Origin: a virus
Virus record (IMG/VR): IMGVR_UViG_3300026521_000028
Span: 1 to 44,337 of that record
DNA: 44,337 bases
Strand: one strand, 5' to 3'
The position numbers were made by a program, and so were the translations under genes. Shown here one piece after another: positions 25,443 through 33,840 of the stretch. The notes beneath the pieces were generated by a model that saw only the letters and a list, made by a program, of their open reading frames with translations, did no database searches and had not been told where the DNA came from. Numbering within the stretch: position 1 is the stretch's first letter; each line of letters opens with the position of its first letter.

Positions 25443-27059
25443 TTAAAAATCCTCACTTTCTTCATTTTCATCTTGTAATTGGTCTATGTCCTCAGCTTCC
25501 ATAAGAACACCTGTATCACTATCATATCTAAATCCTATAGTTTTACCTGTAGCTTGACCACTAAACCTATCTTTAATTACTCTTATTAAACCTTTTTGTC
25601 TCTCTTCTAAGTCCTCGTGAACAGTGTTTCGCTCAACTCCTAACATAAGAGCAGACCATCTCATAATCGCCCTTGAACCTGTAAACATATTTTGTTCAAC
25701 CTTACCTCCAGCCTCGTGACTTGGTCCAGTCTTAGGTGGATTAAGATGACTAACAAGCAATATCCATACATTAAGTTCCTGAGCTAACCCAGCTACCTCA
25801 GCCATAAGCTTATCAAGGTTTCTTCGTTCATCATCAGCAGCTGCATTAAGAGCTGTAAGATTATCAATGTAAAAGTGTTCAACACCAAAACTATGTTTCA
25901 TAAATCTAATCTTACTAGATATTGTTTCCCAGTCAATCATACCGAAGTTATCATAGATGTACAGCCCTCTCATATCTTGTATGGTCTTCTTAAGCTTCTC
26001 AGGGTCATTCTCTTGATTAGGTAGATGATAGAAACAACCATCAATCTTACCAGCTATCCTTAGTAAAGTCTCTCTAGTAGACTGTTCTAACATAAAGGTT
26101 CCTACTGTGTAACCTCGTTTTAAATCATCAGCTATTGATGTCATTACAACATCTGTTTTACCTACAGATACTCCAGCTCCTAGAGATACTATCTCACCTA
26201 GTCTCCTACCATATGTTATTTGTGTCATCTTCTCGAAGAACCACGGTCTACCAACCTCCACTGGTTGTAATGCCTGTTCCAAGATATCCTCAGGAACACA
26301 TATACCTTCTGGTTTATATGCCTCTGCATTATAGAAAGCTTTAGCTATCGAAGGTTTCCCTTTAGCTATAAGTAACTCATTAGCATCTTTGTAATCTGGA
26401 TGTCTAATTATCTTTACTTTCTCAATAGGGAGTATGTTTACACACTCTTCTACTGCTTTCCTACCAGGCTCATCATTATCAAACCATAAATATATCTCAT
26501 CAAAACTGCTAATCCACTCTAGGTGCCTTGATACTTCCTTCTTAGCACTTTGAGCACCGCTTGACAGACTCACAACAGGGTATTTACCATCAAAACCAGT
26601 TGCAACTGAGAGAGCATCAATCTCACCCTCAGTTATTGTAAGTTTTCTTCCTCCTGAACCCCATAATTGTTGTCCATACATCATAGCATCTTTGGTATCA
26701 CCAAGAAACTTAAATGTCTTATCAGCAAAACGAACCTTTTGTGCTACTGGTTGTTTATCTTTATCATAATAAGTAGCTATTTGACAAGTCTTACCACCTA
26801 GAGAACCTATACCATATTTGTATTGCTTACAGATAGCTTCAGGTATCTTACGCTTACCTAAAGGTTGATATTCTGAACTAATCATAGCCAACTTCTTAGA
26901 CCTTTTAGGTCGCTGTTCAGATTGTGTACCATCTGGTGGAGACCAATGTGTACAGGCAAAGCAGTAACTAGAGCCGTTAGTATATACAGCGACACCGTCA
27001 CTAGACCCACACTCATCACAAGAAGTATGGTGAGAAAATTCACTTTCAGTTTGTTCCAT
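25443..27059 (-). CDS. DNA primase-helicase, gp4-like
   Basis: 538 aa (T7 gp4A is 566) from the ATG at 27059, which has AAGGAG 7 bases upstream and starts MEQTESEFSHHTSCDECG; the frame is open 24 codons further but without a ribosome site. Zinc-binding Cys14, Cys17, Cys33, Cys36, then a TOPRIM domain with TEGEIDALSV (about 145-154) and WFDNDEPGRKA. The helicase part has Walker A GAGVSVGKTD and Walker B-type EHFYIDNLTAL, and the DnaB-family GSRAIMRWS. It unwinds DNA and primes lagging strands. The C-terminus is acidic as in T7 gp4, where it contacts polymerase. Confidence 0.94.
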   Translation of the reverse strand: MEQTESEFSHHTSCDECGSSDGVAVYTNGSSYCFACTHWSPPDGTQSEQRPKRSKKLAMISSEYQPLGKRKIPEAICKQYKYGIGSLGGKTCQIATYYDKDKQPVAQKVRFADKTFKFLGDTKDAMMYGQQLWGSGGRKLTITEGEIDALSVATGFDGKYPVVSLSSGAQSAKKEVSRHLEWISSFDEIYLWFDNDEPGRKAVEECVNILPIEKVKIIRHPDYKDANELLIAKGKPSIAKAFYNAEAYKPEGICVPEDILEQALQPVEVGRPWFFEKMTQITYGRRLGEIVSLGAGVSVGKTDVVMTSIADDLKRGYTVGTFMLEQSTRETLLRIAGKIDGCFYHLPNQENDPEKLKKTIQDMRGLYIYDNFGMIDWETISSKIRFMKHSFGVEHFYIDNLTALNAAADDERRNLDKLMAEVAGLAQELNVWILLVSHLNPPKTGPSHEAGGKVEQNMFTGSRAIMRWSALMLGVERNTVHEDLEERQKGLIRVIKDRFSGQATGKTIGFRYDSDTGVLMEAEDIDQLQDENEESEDF

Positions 27060-27063
27060 ATCA

Positions 27064-27210
27064 TTACTCCTTACCTCTTTCAGCTTGTTGTAACTCAGCA
27101 TATAAAGCTGTGTAATCACACTCAGTTTCACCTCCGTGGTCTAGTAAAAGCTTCAGCGATACTAATAGCTCTTGTATTTGGTTTTGAACTTCATCTTCTA
27201 ACATATCCAT
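27064..27210 (-). CDS. Small acidic helical protein before primase-helicase, 48 aa
   Basis: ATG at 27210 overlaps the TAA of the preceding 43-aa gene (TAATG). Ends TAA-TGA 4 bases before the primase start, and its last codons hold the primase Shine-Dalgarno. Leu/Gln/Glu-rich amphipathic helix (EVQNQIQELLVSLKLLLDH). A small replication-linked protein of unknown role. Confidence 0.55.
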   Translation of the reverse strand: MDMLEDEVQNQIQELLVSLKLLLDHGGETECDYTALYAELQQAERGKE

Positions 27211-27341
27211 TATACTTCTCCAACCTCTCTAAGTATCATATCAGCAGCTGTAAGTGCCTCATTGTGTTCTAGGTACTCGTCCTCATACATAAGCTCTCCA
27301 GCTATTTCATCTCTTGTCATATATTTAAAATGTTCGTTCAT
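27210..27341 (-). CDS. Small acidic protein, 43 aa
   Basis: ATG at 27341 with AAAGGAAAATCA upstream; ends TAA overlapping the next ATG. Contains MTRDEIAGELMYEDEYLEHN and an acidic C-terminus. It lies 10 bases after the RusA-like gene. Tight overlap on one side and a ribosome site on the other support coding; no function visible. Confidence 0.55.
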   Translation of the reverse strand: MNEHFKYMTRDEIAGELMYEDEYLEHNEALTAADMILREVGEV

Positions 27342-27351
27342 TGATTTTCCT

Positions 27352-27744
27352 TTAAATTTCTTTTATTCTTACCTCAACATAAGCATCATCTTTACAAACA
27401 CCACCAAAGGTAGCTGTAATCTGTTGTATATGTTGGTAATTATCATCAGGCAATCTACCTAATTCTACCAAAGCGTCCTGTGTGAATTTACTCACAACAG
27501 AAGCTATATTATCTAAGTCAAACAATCTTTTGTTCTCATAGAATATCTTGTAATGTATTTTAACTTTATCCATAACAGGTAAGTCAAGCACATCATCTGT
27601 AATCACATCTTTAAACTCTCTTTTCAACTTGTTTGTAAGTTGATAATGAGCATTACGATATTGGTTTAGATTAAGACTATGTCGCTTGTTTCTTATCGTT
27701 AGGAAGTATGGGACTTTCAGGGAGTGTATATCTCCCTTAGCCAT
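27352..27744 (-). CDS. RusA-like Holliday junction resolvase
   Basis: 130 aa. The conserved RusA core is present: Asp76-x-Asp78-Asn (RLFDLDNIASVV), Asp90 in FTQDAL and Asp100-Asp101 in RLPDDNYQ; these Asp residues bind metal. RusA enzymes cut Holliday junctions as dimers. In T7 that job, needed to debranch DNA for packaging, is done by gp3 endonuclease I, which is absent here, so this gene probably replaces it. It directly follows the Tad2-like gene (no gap) and precedes small genes before the primase-helicase. Confidence 0.78.
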   Translation of the reverse strand: MAKGDIHSLKVPYFLTIRNKRHSLNLNQYRNAHYQLTNKLKREFKDVITDDVLDLPVMDKVKIHYKIFYENKRLFDLDNIASVVSKFTQDALVELGRLPDDNYQHIQQITATFGGVCKDDAYVEVRIKEI

Positions 27745-27960
27745 CTAAACTACTACCCAATCCTCAGCTAGTATATCTGTTTGACTAGCAAACCAAGGTA
27801 CCTGGTTTTTACACGCTGTAAACATATAAATATAAGGTAGACTCATTTTACTGTATTTGTCAGGCATTTGAAGTGCAATCCACATACCTTTACCATTCCA
27901 ACCTTTTCTAGCTACTTTATCTCCAGACTTTAAGACATCTAATGCATTACCGAATGTCAT
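27745..27960 (-). CDS. Tad2-like (DUF2829) anti-defence protein
   Basis: 71 aa. The opening MTFGNALDVLKSGDKVARKGWNGKGMWIAL and the closing WFASQTDILAEDWVVV (residues about 56-71) are the two hallmarks of the DUF2829 family (opening given by its key residues FGNAL, RKGWNGKGM). Members named Tad2 bind the signalling nucleotide of the Thoeris defence, and some also bind cyclic dinucleotides, so the likely role is to mop up host alarm signals. Some DUF2829 proteins are untested. The ATG overlaps the SSB stop (27960), so it is made together with SSB in the replication operon rather than in the early region. Confidence 0.78.
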   Translation of the reverse strand: MTFGNALDVLKSGDKVARKGWNGKGMWIALQMPDKYSKMSLPYIYMFTACKNQVPWFASQTDILAEDWVVV

Positions 27961-28604
27961 TAAAAGTCTCCATTTTCATCATCAGTATAAGCTTCCTCAT
28001 CAGCAAACTCACCGTTATCTGAAGGTAAGTTTAAGTCAGTATCTTCATCCTCAAGTTCATCATCACCACCAAAGCTAACCAACTCAAGTAATTGCACTTT
28101 CTCTAAAATAAGGCTTACACCTATTGTTTTATCTGAAGCCATAGCATAAGGGTTAGCAAAAGCAACACATCTGATAGTACTACCATTACCAATCTGAACC
28201 ATTGGTATCTCACCTGCACTTGCTTTAGGACCTACAAGAATAACTTTGTTTTGCCCAGGTCTTCTGTCATCTACATTGTTCATTTTAAACTTGAATATAA
28301 TGTTACCAGTTTCATCACCATCTTTTGTATACTCTTCTTTGAAGACTTCTCTAGGTTTGTACTGTTTTGGTTTAGGTTTACCCTCATTTGCTTGTTGTAA
28401 TGCAGTATCTCTAAGAGCTTCAAGCTTCTTAATGAACTCTGGAACACCAGGAGCCTCTGGGTCACACACTAAATCTACACTATACTGACCTTTTGCATTA
28501 TATTCTCTGTCAGGTTTATCTAACTTTGCCCATAATGCTGTACCTTTTGGTGATGTTACTTTAGTACCTTTAACTGTGAATGGTTTTTTAATTGCTGCTG
28601 CCAT
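27960..28604 (-). CDS. Single-stranded DNA-binding protein, gp2.5-like
   Basis: 214 aa (T7 gp2.5 is 232 aa). The OB-fold part (residues 1-170) includes KGTALWAKLDKPDREYNAKG, close to marine T7-like SSBs. Residues about 177-214 form a strongly acidic tail ending in Phe (DDENGDF), which in T7 gp2.5 contacts polymerase and primase-helicase. Located behind the RNA polymerase block, as in T7. ATG at 28604 with AAAGGAAATATAAT upstream. Confidence 0.9.
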   Translation of the reverse strand: MAAAIKKPFTVKGTKVTSPKGTALWAKLDKPDREYNAKGQYSVDLVCDPEAPGVPEFIKKLEALRDTALQQANEGKPKPKQYKPREVFKEEYTKDGDETGNIIFKFKMNNVDDRRPGQNKVILVGPKASAGEIPMVQIGNGSTIRCVAFANPYAMASDKTIGVSLILEKVQLLELVSFGGDDELEDEDTDLNLPSDNGEFADEEAYTDDENGDF

Positions 28605-28616
28605 ATTATATTTCCT

Positions 28617-28802
28617 TTATTGTTTATTCATTTCTATCAGAGCACCTTGCTCACCTATCAGTAGAGATAAATCATATTGTAACTCATCAACTACTTTCTT
28701 AATACCTAATAAAGCTTTAAGCCTAAGGTCTATATCTCTTATTGTAAGTACAGTATCTATAGCATCAGCTATATTTGCCCTTACACTCTCTTTATTTGTC
28801 AT
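28617..28802 (-). CDS. Small helical protein between RNA polymerase and SSB, 61 aa
   Basis: ATG at 28802, GGAG 11 bases upstream, 14 bases after the RNA polymerase stop. All-helical, Leu/Ile/Asp-rich (SVRANIADAIDTVLTIRDID), no membrane segment. Clean frame, same strand, fills the gap exactly. Function unknown. Confidence 0.6.
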   Translation of the reverse strand: MTNKESVRANIADAIDTVLTIRDIDLRLKALLGIKKVVDELQYDLSLLIGEQGALIEMNKQ

Positions 28803-28816
28803 TCAATTATAGTCTC

Positions 28817-31342
28817 CTAACTAAATATATAAGCACTCTCTCTAACCTCTTCTAGGTTTAAATCACCTATTATTAAGTCCTTTACTTCAAGAGCCTTGAA
28901 AGGTGCTGTTTGTTCTACAAAATCATACAAAGGCTCATCATTAAATATCTCAATATAAGCCTCTCTAACTTCCTCAGCTAATTTCTCCGTATCAGCGGCG
29001 TGTACACCATAACTATCGTGTATCAAAGCAAAACTAGTTACACCTCGTTGTAATAGCCTTTCAACTGTTCTAAACATCAAGGTAGCATCAAGGCTATGTA
29101 CATAATTAGGTGCTATACCATTAACCATTTTCTTACCATCAAGTTGAGTTGTAGGTGTTCTTATAGATAACTTAGCCAATGCTGTTGTAACTCTAGTTGT
29201 TTTGTATTTCACAATACGATGTACAACAGGGAACCCAAATATAGGGGTCCTATAGAATATATGTGAACCTTTATCAACCACTTCTTTCGTAAGACTCTTC
29301 AAGAAATCCCTACATACAACAGCACCTTCAACAACCTCTCCAATACCTCTGTAGTTTAGTTTGGATAATAATGTGGCTACTTGCCATTTCTCAAGGCCAT
29401 CAGCCCAGAATTGGTTTTTAGTACCCTCATAAGGTTCGATAATATCTTCCATAACTTGGTCTTTCATACCAAAAGTTGATACATTATATGGGAATGTCAT
29501 AGTATTCCTCTTTGTAATCTTGCGATTAATCTTACCTATCATTGAGTTACCAATAACCCTAAAGTCTATTGTATGCTCTTTTTTATCACTTGTTGTGTAT
29601 GTAAATGTCTTAGGGTAATCTTGAGTCTCTAGGTACCTATTAACACATACAGCTACTTCTCCATATATGTCAGCTATTTTTGTATTGTTGTTGTGGTTTA
29701 CAACATTAACAGCTGAAGCCCCTCTATCATCTTTCATAAGACCACTATATATTTGTATACCACTACAAGTAGCATCTAGAGCTATTGGAATATGTGATTT
29801 AAAACTGCTAGGATCTCTAATCCAATCAGCATACTCAAAGCACCAAGCAAGGAATATATAAGGCTCATCGGCATCAGTCCACCTGGTGTTAACCAATGGG
29901 TCTTGTGCAATTTTGCATATTTCATCTGTCATCTCCTCCATAAGTCTTACCCTATCATCAAACAATTCTTTATCATAACCAAATACATTAGCACCGTGTA
30001 TCTTAAACCATCTTACAGACTCAGGTGTGTCTAAAGGCTTACCCTCTGCAAACATAAGGAGACTCTTAACAACCTTAGCTCCCTGAGGATTAAGATGAGG
30101 TTGTATTGGATATAAACGACCTCTAAAGTCTACTTGATAACTAAAGTATATTTCACTATACTTGTTATACTTCTTAGCAGCACTCATAGCGAGTTTTACA
30201 ACAAGACTCTTAGATTTTAGAGTATCAAACTTATCCTCAAGCTTCATAATCTTATCTCTATACTCTATGTAAGGTGTTTTGTTATTTTCATCATATTCAA
30301 CAACATCTACTATATCATATGGATTAGGAAGGTCATCATCAGGTAAACCCCCAAGTAAAGTATACTCAGAGGTATAATCCATTAAATGTTTATCATACAC
30401 TGTTTCCAGAACCTTTAAAACCCTTGAGTTAACTCTCCAAGGTACTCTCTGTACTGCATTTACAATATTTAAGTAACGCTTAGTGAACTCAGGATGTGCA
30501 TCAAAATACCCTCTAACCATCTTACGATTTACACGGTCGTTATGCATTTTAACTAAGTCTATGTTAAGGAAGTCACAATAGTAACCTCCATTACCACTAA
30601 ATTCTTTCCACTCTTTAGGTTTTACAACAAATATAGGATAACTATAAGTGAAGAATGGAGACAAGTCCTTCATCTGCTCTATAATTTCTATAGTAGTGTC
30701 TGTAAGTTTCAATAGAGACCTTTTCTTTTTACTTTTAGTTTTTATTGTAATAGTTTTTACTAAACCACAGCCTGATTTAATAACAGCTTCTATTAAATTA
30801 AGACCTAAAGTCAACCCTTGAATATTATCAGGGTCTCCAAGCTCCATTTTCTTCTTACCTAACATCATCTTTTTATTGGTTCGTCTTCTAACACTAAGCT
30901 TTTTGTATTTCTTATCTATATACTTATCTAATGTTGGTACTTTACCTTTAAACAACTCTAGTTTATACTCCTGTTTAATAGAAGATAATATACTTCTCGC
31001 TACAGTAAGTAAAGGTACACTATAAATAGGGTATTTACCTCCCCAAGACTTCAATGTGTTATTCATAATAGAACTAAGAACCATATAAGCTAGAGTATCT
31101 TCATTATCTAAGTAATCCATTATAGGCTCTCTAGTTGCAAATGAGGCTCCTCTAAGACTCTTAGATGTTAAATACTCTCTTATCTTAGCACTAACAGGTT
31201 GTATTGTTCTCTTTATAAGAATAATACCCTCATTTGTTTCACTACCTCTACCATCTTCAACATTCTTATTGAATATGTTTTGAGACTTTATTACAGAAAC
31301 ATCATATGCTTCTTGCTCTAGTTGCCTCTGTGTTTCAATCAT
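28817..31342 (-). CDS. Single-subunit DNA-dependent RNA polymerase, gp1-like
   Basis: 841 aa (T7 883). Catalytic Asp523 in DATCSGIQ, Lys611 and Tyr619 in TKRNTMTFPYN (T7 Lys631/Tyr639), His749 in APNYVHS (T7 His784) and Asp776 in IHDSYG (T7 Asp812) are all present. It transcribes the middle and late genes from its own promoters. The segment between SIRTP and GIAPN is about 15 residues, whereas the T7 specificity loop region there is about 25, so the promoter sequence should differ from T7. No T7-lysozyme gene sits in the early region to inhibit it. ATG at 31342 with AAAGGAAACTAA upstream. Confidence 0.96.
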   Translation of the reverse strand: MIETQRQLEQEAYDVSVIKSQNIFNKNVEDGRGSETNEGIILIKRTIQPVSAKIREYLTSKSLRGASFATREPIMDYLDNEDTLAYMVLSSIMNNTLKSWGGKYPIYSVPLLTVARSILSSIKQEYKLELFKGKVPTLDKYIDKKYKKLSVRRRTNKKMMLGKKKMELGDPDNIQGLTLGLNLIEAVIKSGCGLVKTITIKTKSKKKRSLLKLTDTTIEIIEQMKDLSPFFTYSYPIFVVKPKEWKEFSGNGGYYCDFLNIDLVKMHNDRVNRKMVRGYFDAHPEFTKRYLNIVNAVQRVPWRVNSRVLKVLETVYDKHLMDYTSEYTLLGGLPDDDLPNPYDIVDVVEYDENNKTPYIEYRDKIMKLEDKFDTLKSKSLVVKLAMSAAKKYNKYSEIYFSYQVDFRGRLYPIQPHLNPQGAKVVKSLLMFAEGKPLDTPESVRWFKIHGANVFGYDKELFDDRVRLMEEMTDEICKIAQDPLVNTRWTDADEPYIFLAWCFEYADWIRDPSSFKSHIPIALDATCSGIQIYSGLMKDDRGASAVNVVNHNNNTKIADIYGEVAVCVNRYLETQDYPKTFTYTTSDKKEHTIDFRVIGNSMIGKINRKITKRNTMTFPYNVSTFGMKDQVMEDIIEPYEGTKNQFWADGLEKWQVATLLSKLNYRGIGEVVEGAVVCRDFLKSLTKEVVDKGSHIFYRTPIFGFPVVHRIVKYKTTRVTTALAKLSIRTPTTQLDGKKMVNGIAPNYVHSLDATLMFRTVERLLQRGVTSFALIHDSYGVHAADTEKLAEEVREAYIEIFNDEPLYDFVEQTAPFKALEVKDLIIGDLNLEEVRESAYIFS

Positions 31343-33214: not shown

Positions 33215-33421
33215 TTAATCTTTTAATATTATTCCAGCACCAACTACTACAACACCTGCACCCATCATCTTCATCCAAATAACAAACCCAGCCCACATTG
33301 AAGCTCCTAAAGCAACTCCTGTACTCCAAGTATATAACCAAGTACCTATACCTGTAATTTGTGCAAACACTAATGCTATTATACCTATAAGTGCTATTAT
33401 ACTTCCTATTCCATTTTTCAT
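33215..33421 (-). CDS. Small membrane protein, 68 aa
   Basis: Two membrane segments: residues about 5-27 (IGSIIALIGIIALVFAQITG) and about 36-66 (Gly/Val/Met-rich, ending GAGIILKD). Its ATG overlaps the lipoprotein stop (33421), so both are translated together. The role is unknown. Confidence 0.6.
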   Translation of the reverse strand: MKNGIGSIIALIGIIALVFAQITGIGTWLYTWSTGVALGASMWAGFVIWMKMMGAGVVVVGAGIILKD

Positions 33422-33840
33422 TATCTAAAGTCCTTATTATCTAATTTTGGTGTATCAATCAAACTTCCTCTGAAGTCTATATCATTTAATATTGTTTGTG
33501 GTTTGAATGTCACTCTATAATGATATACACTAACATTTGCATCATTTAACTGCTCTGAGAAGTATGTAACATTATTAGAAAGCCCTAAGTAATGCTTCTT
33601 ATATGAATGTTCTCCAGTCTTACAAGTAACTGCTAATTTCTTACCAGTCGTTTCTATTGAACATCTACCAGCTATAGTGAGTATATATTCACCATTGATA
33701 CCATTGTAAAACACAATCCTTCTTTCTAGCTCGAACATATCTGCTTTGGTTGATAAGTTCTGTGAGGCTACTCTAGCATCCGAATCACATCCTGTAAATA
33801 ATGCAGCTACTAAAGCTACTCCTAGTAATAATTTCTTCAT
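33421..33840 (-). CDS. Beta-sandwich lipoprotein with signal peptide
   Basis: 139 aa. Residues 1-17 are a lipoprotein signal (MKKLLLGVALVAALFTG) followed by Cys18, the lipobox being LFTGC. The mature part is beta-rich (RRIVFYNGINGEYILTIAG, GLSNNVTYFSEQLNDANVSV, YHYRVTFKPQTIL) and matches a family of phage-encoded beta-sandwich lipoproteins found in many unrelated phages of Gram-negative hosts. An envelope role such as superinfection exclusion is plausible but untested as far as I know. Stop overlaps the 68-aa membrane gene, and the ATG (33840) overlaps the ligase stop. Confidence 0.75.
   Translation of the reverse strand: MKKLLLGVALVAALFTGCDSDARVASQNLSTKADMFELERRIVFYNGINGEYILTIAGRCSIETTGKKLAVTCKTGEHSYKKHYLGLSNNVTYFSEQLNDANVSVYHYRVTFKPQTILNDIDFRGSLIDTPKLDNKDFR

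Follow-up and report, generated by a model that had tools for sequence, protein, structure and literature searches.

A predicted compact Tad2-type sponge gene as probable accessory cargo in the replication operon of a T7-like podophage

Introduction

Within the replication operon of a T7-like podophage, a short gene resembling those for Tad2 proteins lies between the genes for a single-stranded DNA-binding protein (SSB) and a RusA-like resolvase. This arrangement raises the question of whether the gene serves replication, as its neighbors do, or counters host defense, and, in the latter case, which immune signal its product would bind. The gene belongs to the PF11195 family (Tad2-like, formerly DUF2829), the tested members of which sequester alarm molecules of bacterial immunity.

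The phage is represented by a 44.3-kb IMG/VR virus record that was analyzed along its entire length and is hereafter called the window. The genes of interest are all on the minus strand and include, in the direction of transcription, a T7-type single-subunit RNA polymerase (RNAP; 841 aa, 28817..31342; PF00940, E = 3.7e-85; phmmer match to T7 RNAP, E = 4.6e-76), the T7 gp2.5-like SSB (214 aa, 27960..28604; PF21265, E = 6.4e-09; phrog_112, E = 1.1e-24), the tad2-like gene, the RusA-like Holliday junction resolvase (130 aa, 27352..27744; phrog_1682, E = 8.5e-33) and a T7-like primase-helicase (25443..27131; PF21268, Toprim and DnaB_C). The SSB and RusA genes form the upstream and downstream edges, respectively, of what we call here the SSB|RusA slot. 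The window further encodes a family A DNA polymerase, ribonucleotide reductase (RNR), ThyX, and head, connector and tail proteins. When 20 kb of window sequence was compared by megablast with cultured phages, no match emerged, so that the phage has no cultured close relative. Elsewhere in the window, a 139-aa protein (33421..33840, minus strand) matches phrog_478 (recombination directionality factor) and PF25682 (Phage_VG64; 5e-50), although no integrase was noticed among the scanned window genes.

Results

The tad2-like gene is an intact open reading frame (ORF) with an ATG start that occupies exactly positions 27745..27960 (minus strand) and encodes a protein of 71 aa, a compact form of PF11195. 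The match to the Pfam model spans its full length (positions 1-73 of 73; E = 1.8e-25, 89.7 bits with a cut-off of 25), and the only PDB sequences matched by phmmer are solved Tad2 proteins, namely, SptTad2 (1.8e-15), HgmTad2/AcrIIA7 (3.4e-14), SPO1 Tad2 (3.8e-12) and ModTad2 (1.9e-11). The first-pass annotation had described a DUF2829 protein with both family hallmarks, and this is borne out by the Pfam match and by the two motifs, R18-x-G-W-N-G-K-G-M (residues 18-26) and W56-x-A-S-Q-T-D-x-L-A-E-D-W68 (residues 56-68), each of them invariant or nearly so across 73 homologs. PADLOC returned no match.

A comparison with Tad2 by structure prediction, also suggested by that annotation, was run on the monomer. 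The AlphaFold model, built with 73 sequences from the window and the fetched contigs as input, has a mean pLDDT of 95.3 and a pTM of 0.81. In the DSSP assignment on this model (codons at 27748..27960, minus strand), helix 3-11 is followed by strands 16-18, 27-31, 43-47 and 53-55, helix 60-64 and strand 68-70. The predicted fold matches Tad2: the top Foldseek hit is SPO1 Tad2 with gcADPR (E = 6.3e-08; query TM 0.84-0.90), and nothing other than Tad2/AcrIIA7 entries was retrieved from PDB at E <= 0.001 (24 matches; query TM 0.83-0.90). By homology and context, the gene is a new member of an already known family, with a likely anti-defense function, in agreement with the first-pass assignment, which sequence, predicted fold and neighborhood all support.

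Which signal such a protein would bind can be approached through the solved Tad2 structures. According to a review of these structures (PMC12043709), one protomer contributes to the gcADPR pocket the loop joining strands 1 and 2, the loop joining strands 3 and 4, and strand 4 itself, and another protomer contributes its own strand 1-2 loop, the loop from strand 4 to helix 3, and helix 3; cyclic dinucleotides are bound by Tad2 via residues inserted between strands 2 and 5. SPO1 Tad2 binds gcADPR but not 3'3'-cGAMP (PMC11722364). Invariant residues of the tad2-like protein fall in the loops and strand described as walls of the pocket (PMC12043709), both hallmark motifs lying in pocket regions, and R18, G20, W21, N22, G23, W56, S59, Q60, D62 and D67 are shared with the gcADPR-binding SPO1 Tad2 and with HgmTad2. 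The SQTD tetrapeptide is that of the SPO1, Hgm and Spt proteins, whereas ModTad2, a binder of His-ADPR, has SVSD. The long cyclic-dinucleotide insertion, which amounts to 24-30 residues in SptTad2 and HgmTad2, is absent. Given that the pocket-region residues and SQTD are retained and the insertion is missing, cyclic ADP-ribose signals of Thoeris would be expected over the cyclic dinucleotides of CBASS, which are not favored because the reported binding insertion is lacking. The protein is thus most likely, as judged from its sequence, a sponge for an ADP-ribose signal (Thoeris) and less likely a CBASS sponge.

At the site of this insertion, the tad2-like protein carries instead a segment of its own, LQxPDxxSKMxxPY (residues 30-43), relative to which SPO1 Tad2 and ModTad2 each have 13 extra residues, SptTad2 24 and HgmTad2 30. 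In the phylogenetic tree, which comprises 80 columns with few resolved forks and was used solely for the compact-clade branch and for the pairing of the window protein with its homolog L036, the protein falls in a compact branch of 75 rows with a support of 96/90; one member, L008, is placed inside this branch even though it lacks the clade motif. Among the 74 compact sequences compared, a sample ordered by resemblance to the window protein and so enriched for the motif, although other columns vary freely, Q31, P33, S37, M39, P42 and Y43 are 100% invariant and D34 and K38 are conserved at >=95%; Q31 and M39 are found in none of the four characterized Tad2 proteins.

These features suggest the alternative that the invariant loop, taking the place of the cyclic-dinucleotide insertion, recognizes a different or additional nucleotide signal, and the ligand of the compact clade could indeed differ from those of the solved Tad2 proteins because none of the latter comes from this clade, which has an invariant segment of its own. 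The gcADPR pocket regions, however, are unchanged, the sampling favors the motif, and the segment could serve in folding or oligomer contacts rather than in ligand binding. We therefore regard a sponge for another signal as unlikely for this phage; the broader proposition, that the compact clade, common in viral contigs, uses the loop for an immune signal not bound by any known Tad2, appears somewhat less likely still.

The gene neighborhood was compared among nine contigs that encode an SSB 52-85% identical to that of the window and in which the RNAP, SSB, RusA and primase genes follow one another as they do there; some of these records are fragments, but the SSB|RusA slot is covered in all nine. 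In seven (L012, L013, L014, L016, L018, L019 and L020), the slot is empty, the RusA gene following the SSB gene with no room between them (TTC TAG TAG ATG at the junction in L012). In the remaining two, the slot holds orphan ORFs unrelated to the tad2-like gene, of 69 aa in L015 (6636-6845) and 74 aa in L017 (6648-6872), both starting in a TAATG shared with the SSB stop codon. Neither orphan has a PHROG match below 0.1, and searches of IMG/VR, at the sensitivity used, recovered only the orphans themselves; we consider them candidates for other counter-defense genes. A PF11195 gene was found in none of the nine relatives, whole records being scanned. A search for a second sponge, PF24729, gave no match in the window phage or in seven relatives, and the control search was equally without any match.

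DNA homology between the window and L014 or L016 ends at the SSB stop codon and restarts at the RusA start codon, a break that implies insertion or loss of a single ORF. The tad2-like gene thus seems to have been gained or lost precisely as one ORF, which argues for optional cargo and against a part of the replication apparatus. In the comparison with L012 (6637-7026), the RusA protein of the window is 97% identical, compared to 83% for SSB and 72% for RNAP, a possible sign of recombination near the slot. A small 61-aa gene between the RNAP and SSB genes (28617-28802, minus strand) is either 35-82% identical or undetected in the relatives and appears to be a second variable spot adjoining a conserved gene.

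The junctions themselves are tight. The SSB gene ends in ...GGAGACTTTTAATG, and the last A of its stop codon TAA is the first base of the tad2-like ATG, forming a TAATG overlap (27958..27962, minus strand). A GGAG sequence (27968-27971) lies 7 nt upstream of this ATG, within the SSB codons for the C-terminal GDF. At the other end, the tad2-like gene terminates in ...GTTTAG, and the ATG of the RusA-like gene comes next with a gap of zero; the coupling to both neighbors noted in the first-pass annotation is accordingly present in the sequence. No terminator-like site was detected at the SSB/tad2-like/RusA-like junctions, and promoter-like sites within 27000-29000 are not in excess of those in shuffled sequences, in a scan that does not cover phage-type promoters. 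A dedicated promoter for the tad2-like gene was accordingly rejected, and the arrangement is most simply read as co-translation of the gene from the SSB message.

Translational coupling to SSB could also be taken to indicate that the gene functions in replication or nucleotide metabolism together with SSB and RusA, the more so because some homologs adjoin genes for RNR, DNA polymerase, glutaredoxin or the clamp loader. Relatives that share a set of replication genes would be expected to have any core replication gene as well, but the tad2-like gene is missing from all nine relatives that share the SSB, RusA, RNAP and primase genes; furthermore, homologs also adjoin structural and chaperonin genes, and the fold search against PDB retrieved no replication protein with this fold. 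We consider a replication role very unlikely and have set it aside, along with the additional part in nucleotide handling that had been raised for this gene. The gene appears instead to be an accessory, horizontally moved cassette. A late need for protection, also raised, is without support: the gene comes shortly after the phage RNAP gene and, by gene order, would be middle rather than late.

A search of viral contigs seeded with the pocket motifs recovered at least 589 relatives of the tad2-like protein. The closest homolog among the matches listed, L036, is 75% identical, and its gene follows a terminase gene; the L036 contig has no detectable protein similarity to the 24 window proteins compared with it. 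Horizontal movement is suggested because this nearest listed homolog resides in an unrelated phage. The immediate neighbors of 76 non-redundant homologs are mixed, including RNR, glutaredoxin, DNA polymerase, GroES/GroEL, portal, terminase and coat genes. In cultured phages, the PF11195 gene lies between the RNR beta and exonuclease genes (Acinetobacter phage VB_ApiP_XC38), precedes the clamp loader gene (PaBG), or follows asiA (KVP40) or the capsid gene (the autographivirus PWKp7). Location in the replication region, which the first-pass annotation had deemed unusual, is therefore not so: the family occurs in replication modules in XC38 and PaBG, and beside structural genes or asiA in other phages.

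Two other sponge families have the Acb2/Tad1 hairpin as their core. Acb2_Tad1_hairpin genes account for 6 of the 132 neighbors of compact tad2 genes compared to none of 148 control ORFs, which are computed ORFs farther off in the same loci (Fisher p = 0.010); a motif singled out five of the six, each lying immediately downstream and in the same orientation, and individual checks confirmed two of these five. This adjacency points, modestly, to counter-defense. Separately, six related genes adjoin compact tad2 genes in L039, L042, L070, L086, L094 and L106; the one in L042, scanned alone, belongs to PF13876 (N4 gp49/Sf6 gene 66), a family found in 6 of the 132 neighbors and in none of the 148 control ORFs, and these genes are possibly linked to counter-defense as well. 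In one further locus, the full tad2-like copy is preceded, some 850 bases upstream, by another stretch with weak tad2-like similarity (L005:3394-3540; 28% identity).

Given the absence of the gene from all relatives seen, it may be a recent arrival, and one could view it as a passenger that currently has no function in this phage. The intact frame, the good ribosome-binding site, the retention of all invariant residues and a GC content close to that of the genome (36.1% and 34.7%, respectively) make this highly improbable.

Discussion

We conclude that the tad2-like gene probably encodes a compact Tad2-type sponge, an accessory counter-defense protein carried in an exchangeable SSB|RusA slot of a T7-like podophage, with the ligand predicted. 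This reading is based on the family, the predicted fold, the conservation of the pocket regions, the operon junction, and the accessory, horizontally moved status of the gene. The oligomeric state, ligand, target system and timing that we infer can be put together as follows. Once the phage RNAP is active, translation of the protein would be coupled to that of SSB on the SSB message, and the 71-aa chain would assemble into a Tad2-type oligomer. The pocket formed by the GWNGK and SQTDxLAxDW segments would bind nucleotide immune signals, most likely a cyclic ADP-ribose isomer produced by a Thoeris TIR protein, and with this ligand sequestered, the effector would not be activated before phage replication is complete. 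An anti-CRISPR of the AcrIIA7 type that blocks Cas9 is extremely improbable: family members also go by the name AcrIIA7, and two of the matching PDB entries, 8kbi and 9kzr, are labeled thus or similarly, but 8kbj and 8kbk contain the AcrIIA7-named protein bound to cyclic ADPR and cGG, which accounts for that protein as a sponge.

The short slot, which among these T7-like phages is empty, filled by Tad2 or filled by an orphan, makes a clear comparative case, in which the Tad2 and orphan genes use the C-terminal codons of SSB as a ribosome-binding site. The case explains how counter-defense genes could come to lie inside replication operons without any replication role, and makes the two orphans candidates for counter-defense. 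It also draws attention to a widespread compact Tad2 clade with a ligand not covered by the solved structures.

Among the known systems, SPO1 Tad2 (gp34.65; 8sme, 8smf and 8smg) resembles the tad2-like protein in Pfam family, predicted fold, and the GWNGK and SQTDxLAEDW motifs; the window protein differs in being 13 residues shorter between strands 2 and 3, where it has LQxPDxxSKMxxPY instead. HgmTad2/AcrIIA7 (8kbi-8kbm) and SptTad2 (8wjd) share the family, SQTD and an identical GWNGKGM, but have the 24-30 extra residues at the reported cyclic-dinucleotide insertion. ModTad2, encoded by a prophage of Myroides odoratus (9eib, in complex with His-ADPR), has the same family and fold, but differs by SVSD in place of SQTD and by a 13-residue insertion; its reported target is type II Thoeris (PMC13299392). 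The Tad2-like P015 of the Sinorhizobium podovirus AP-20-A is likewise a podovirus gene product with a predicted function, but at 97 aa and closest to MoTad2, it represents a longer form (PMC13299392). The DUF2829-type protein of VB_ApiP_XC38 is 65% identical to the window protein, similarly compact, carries the clade motif and is also encoded in a DNA-metabolism module, but in a Schitoviridae (N4-like) genome and among other neighbors.
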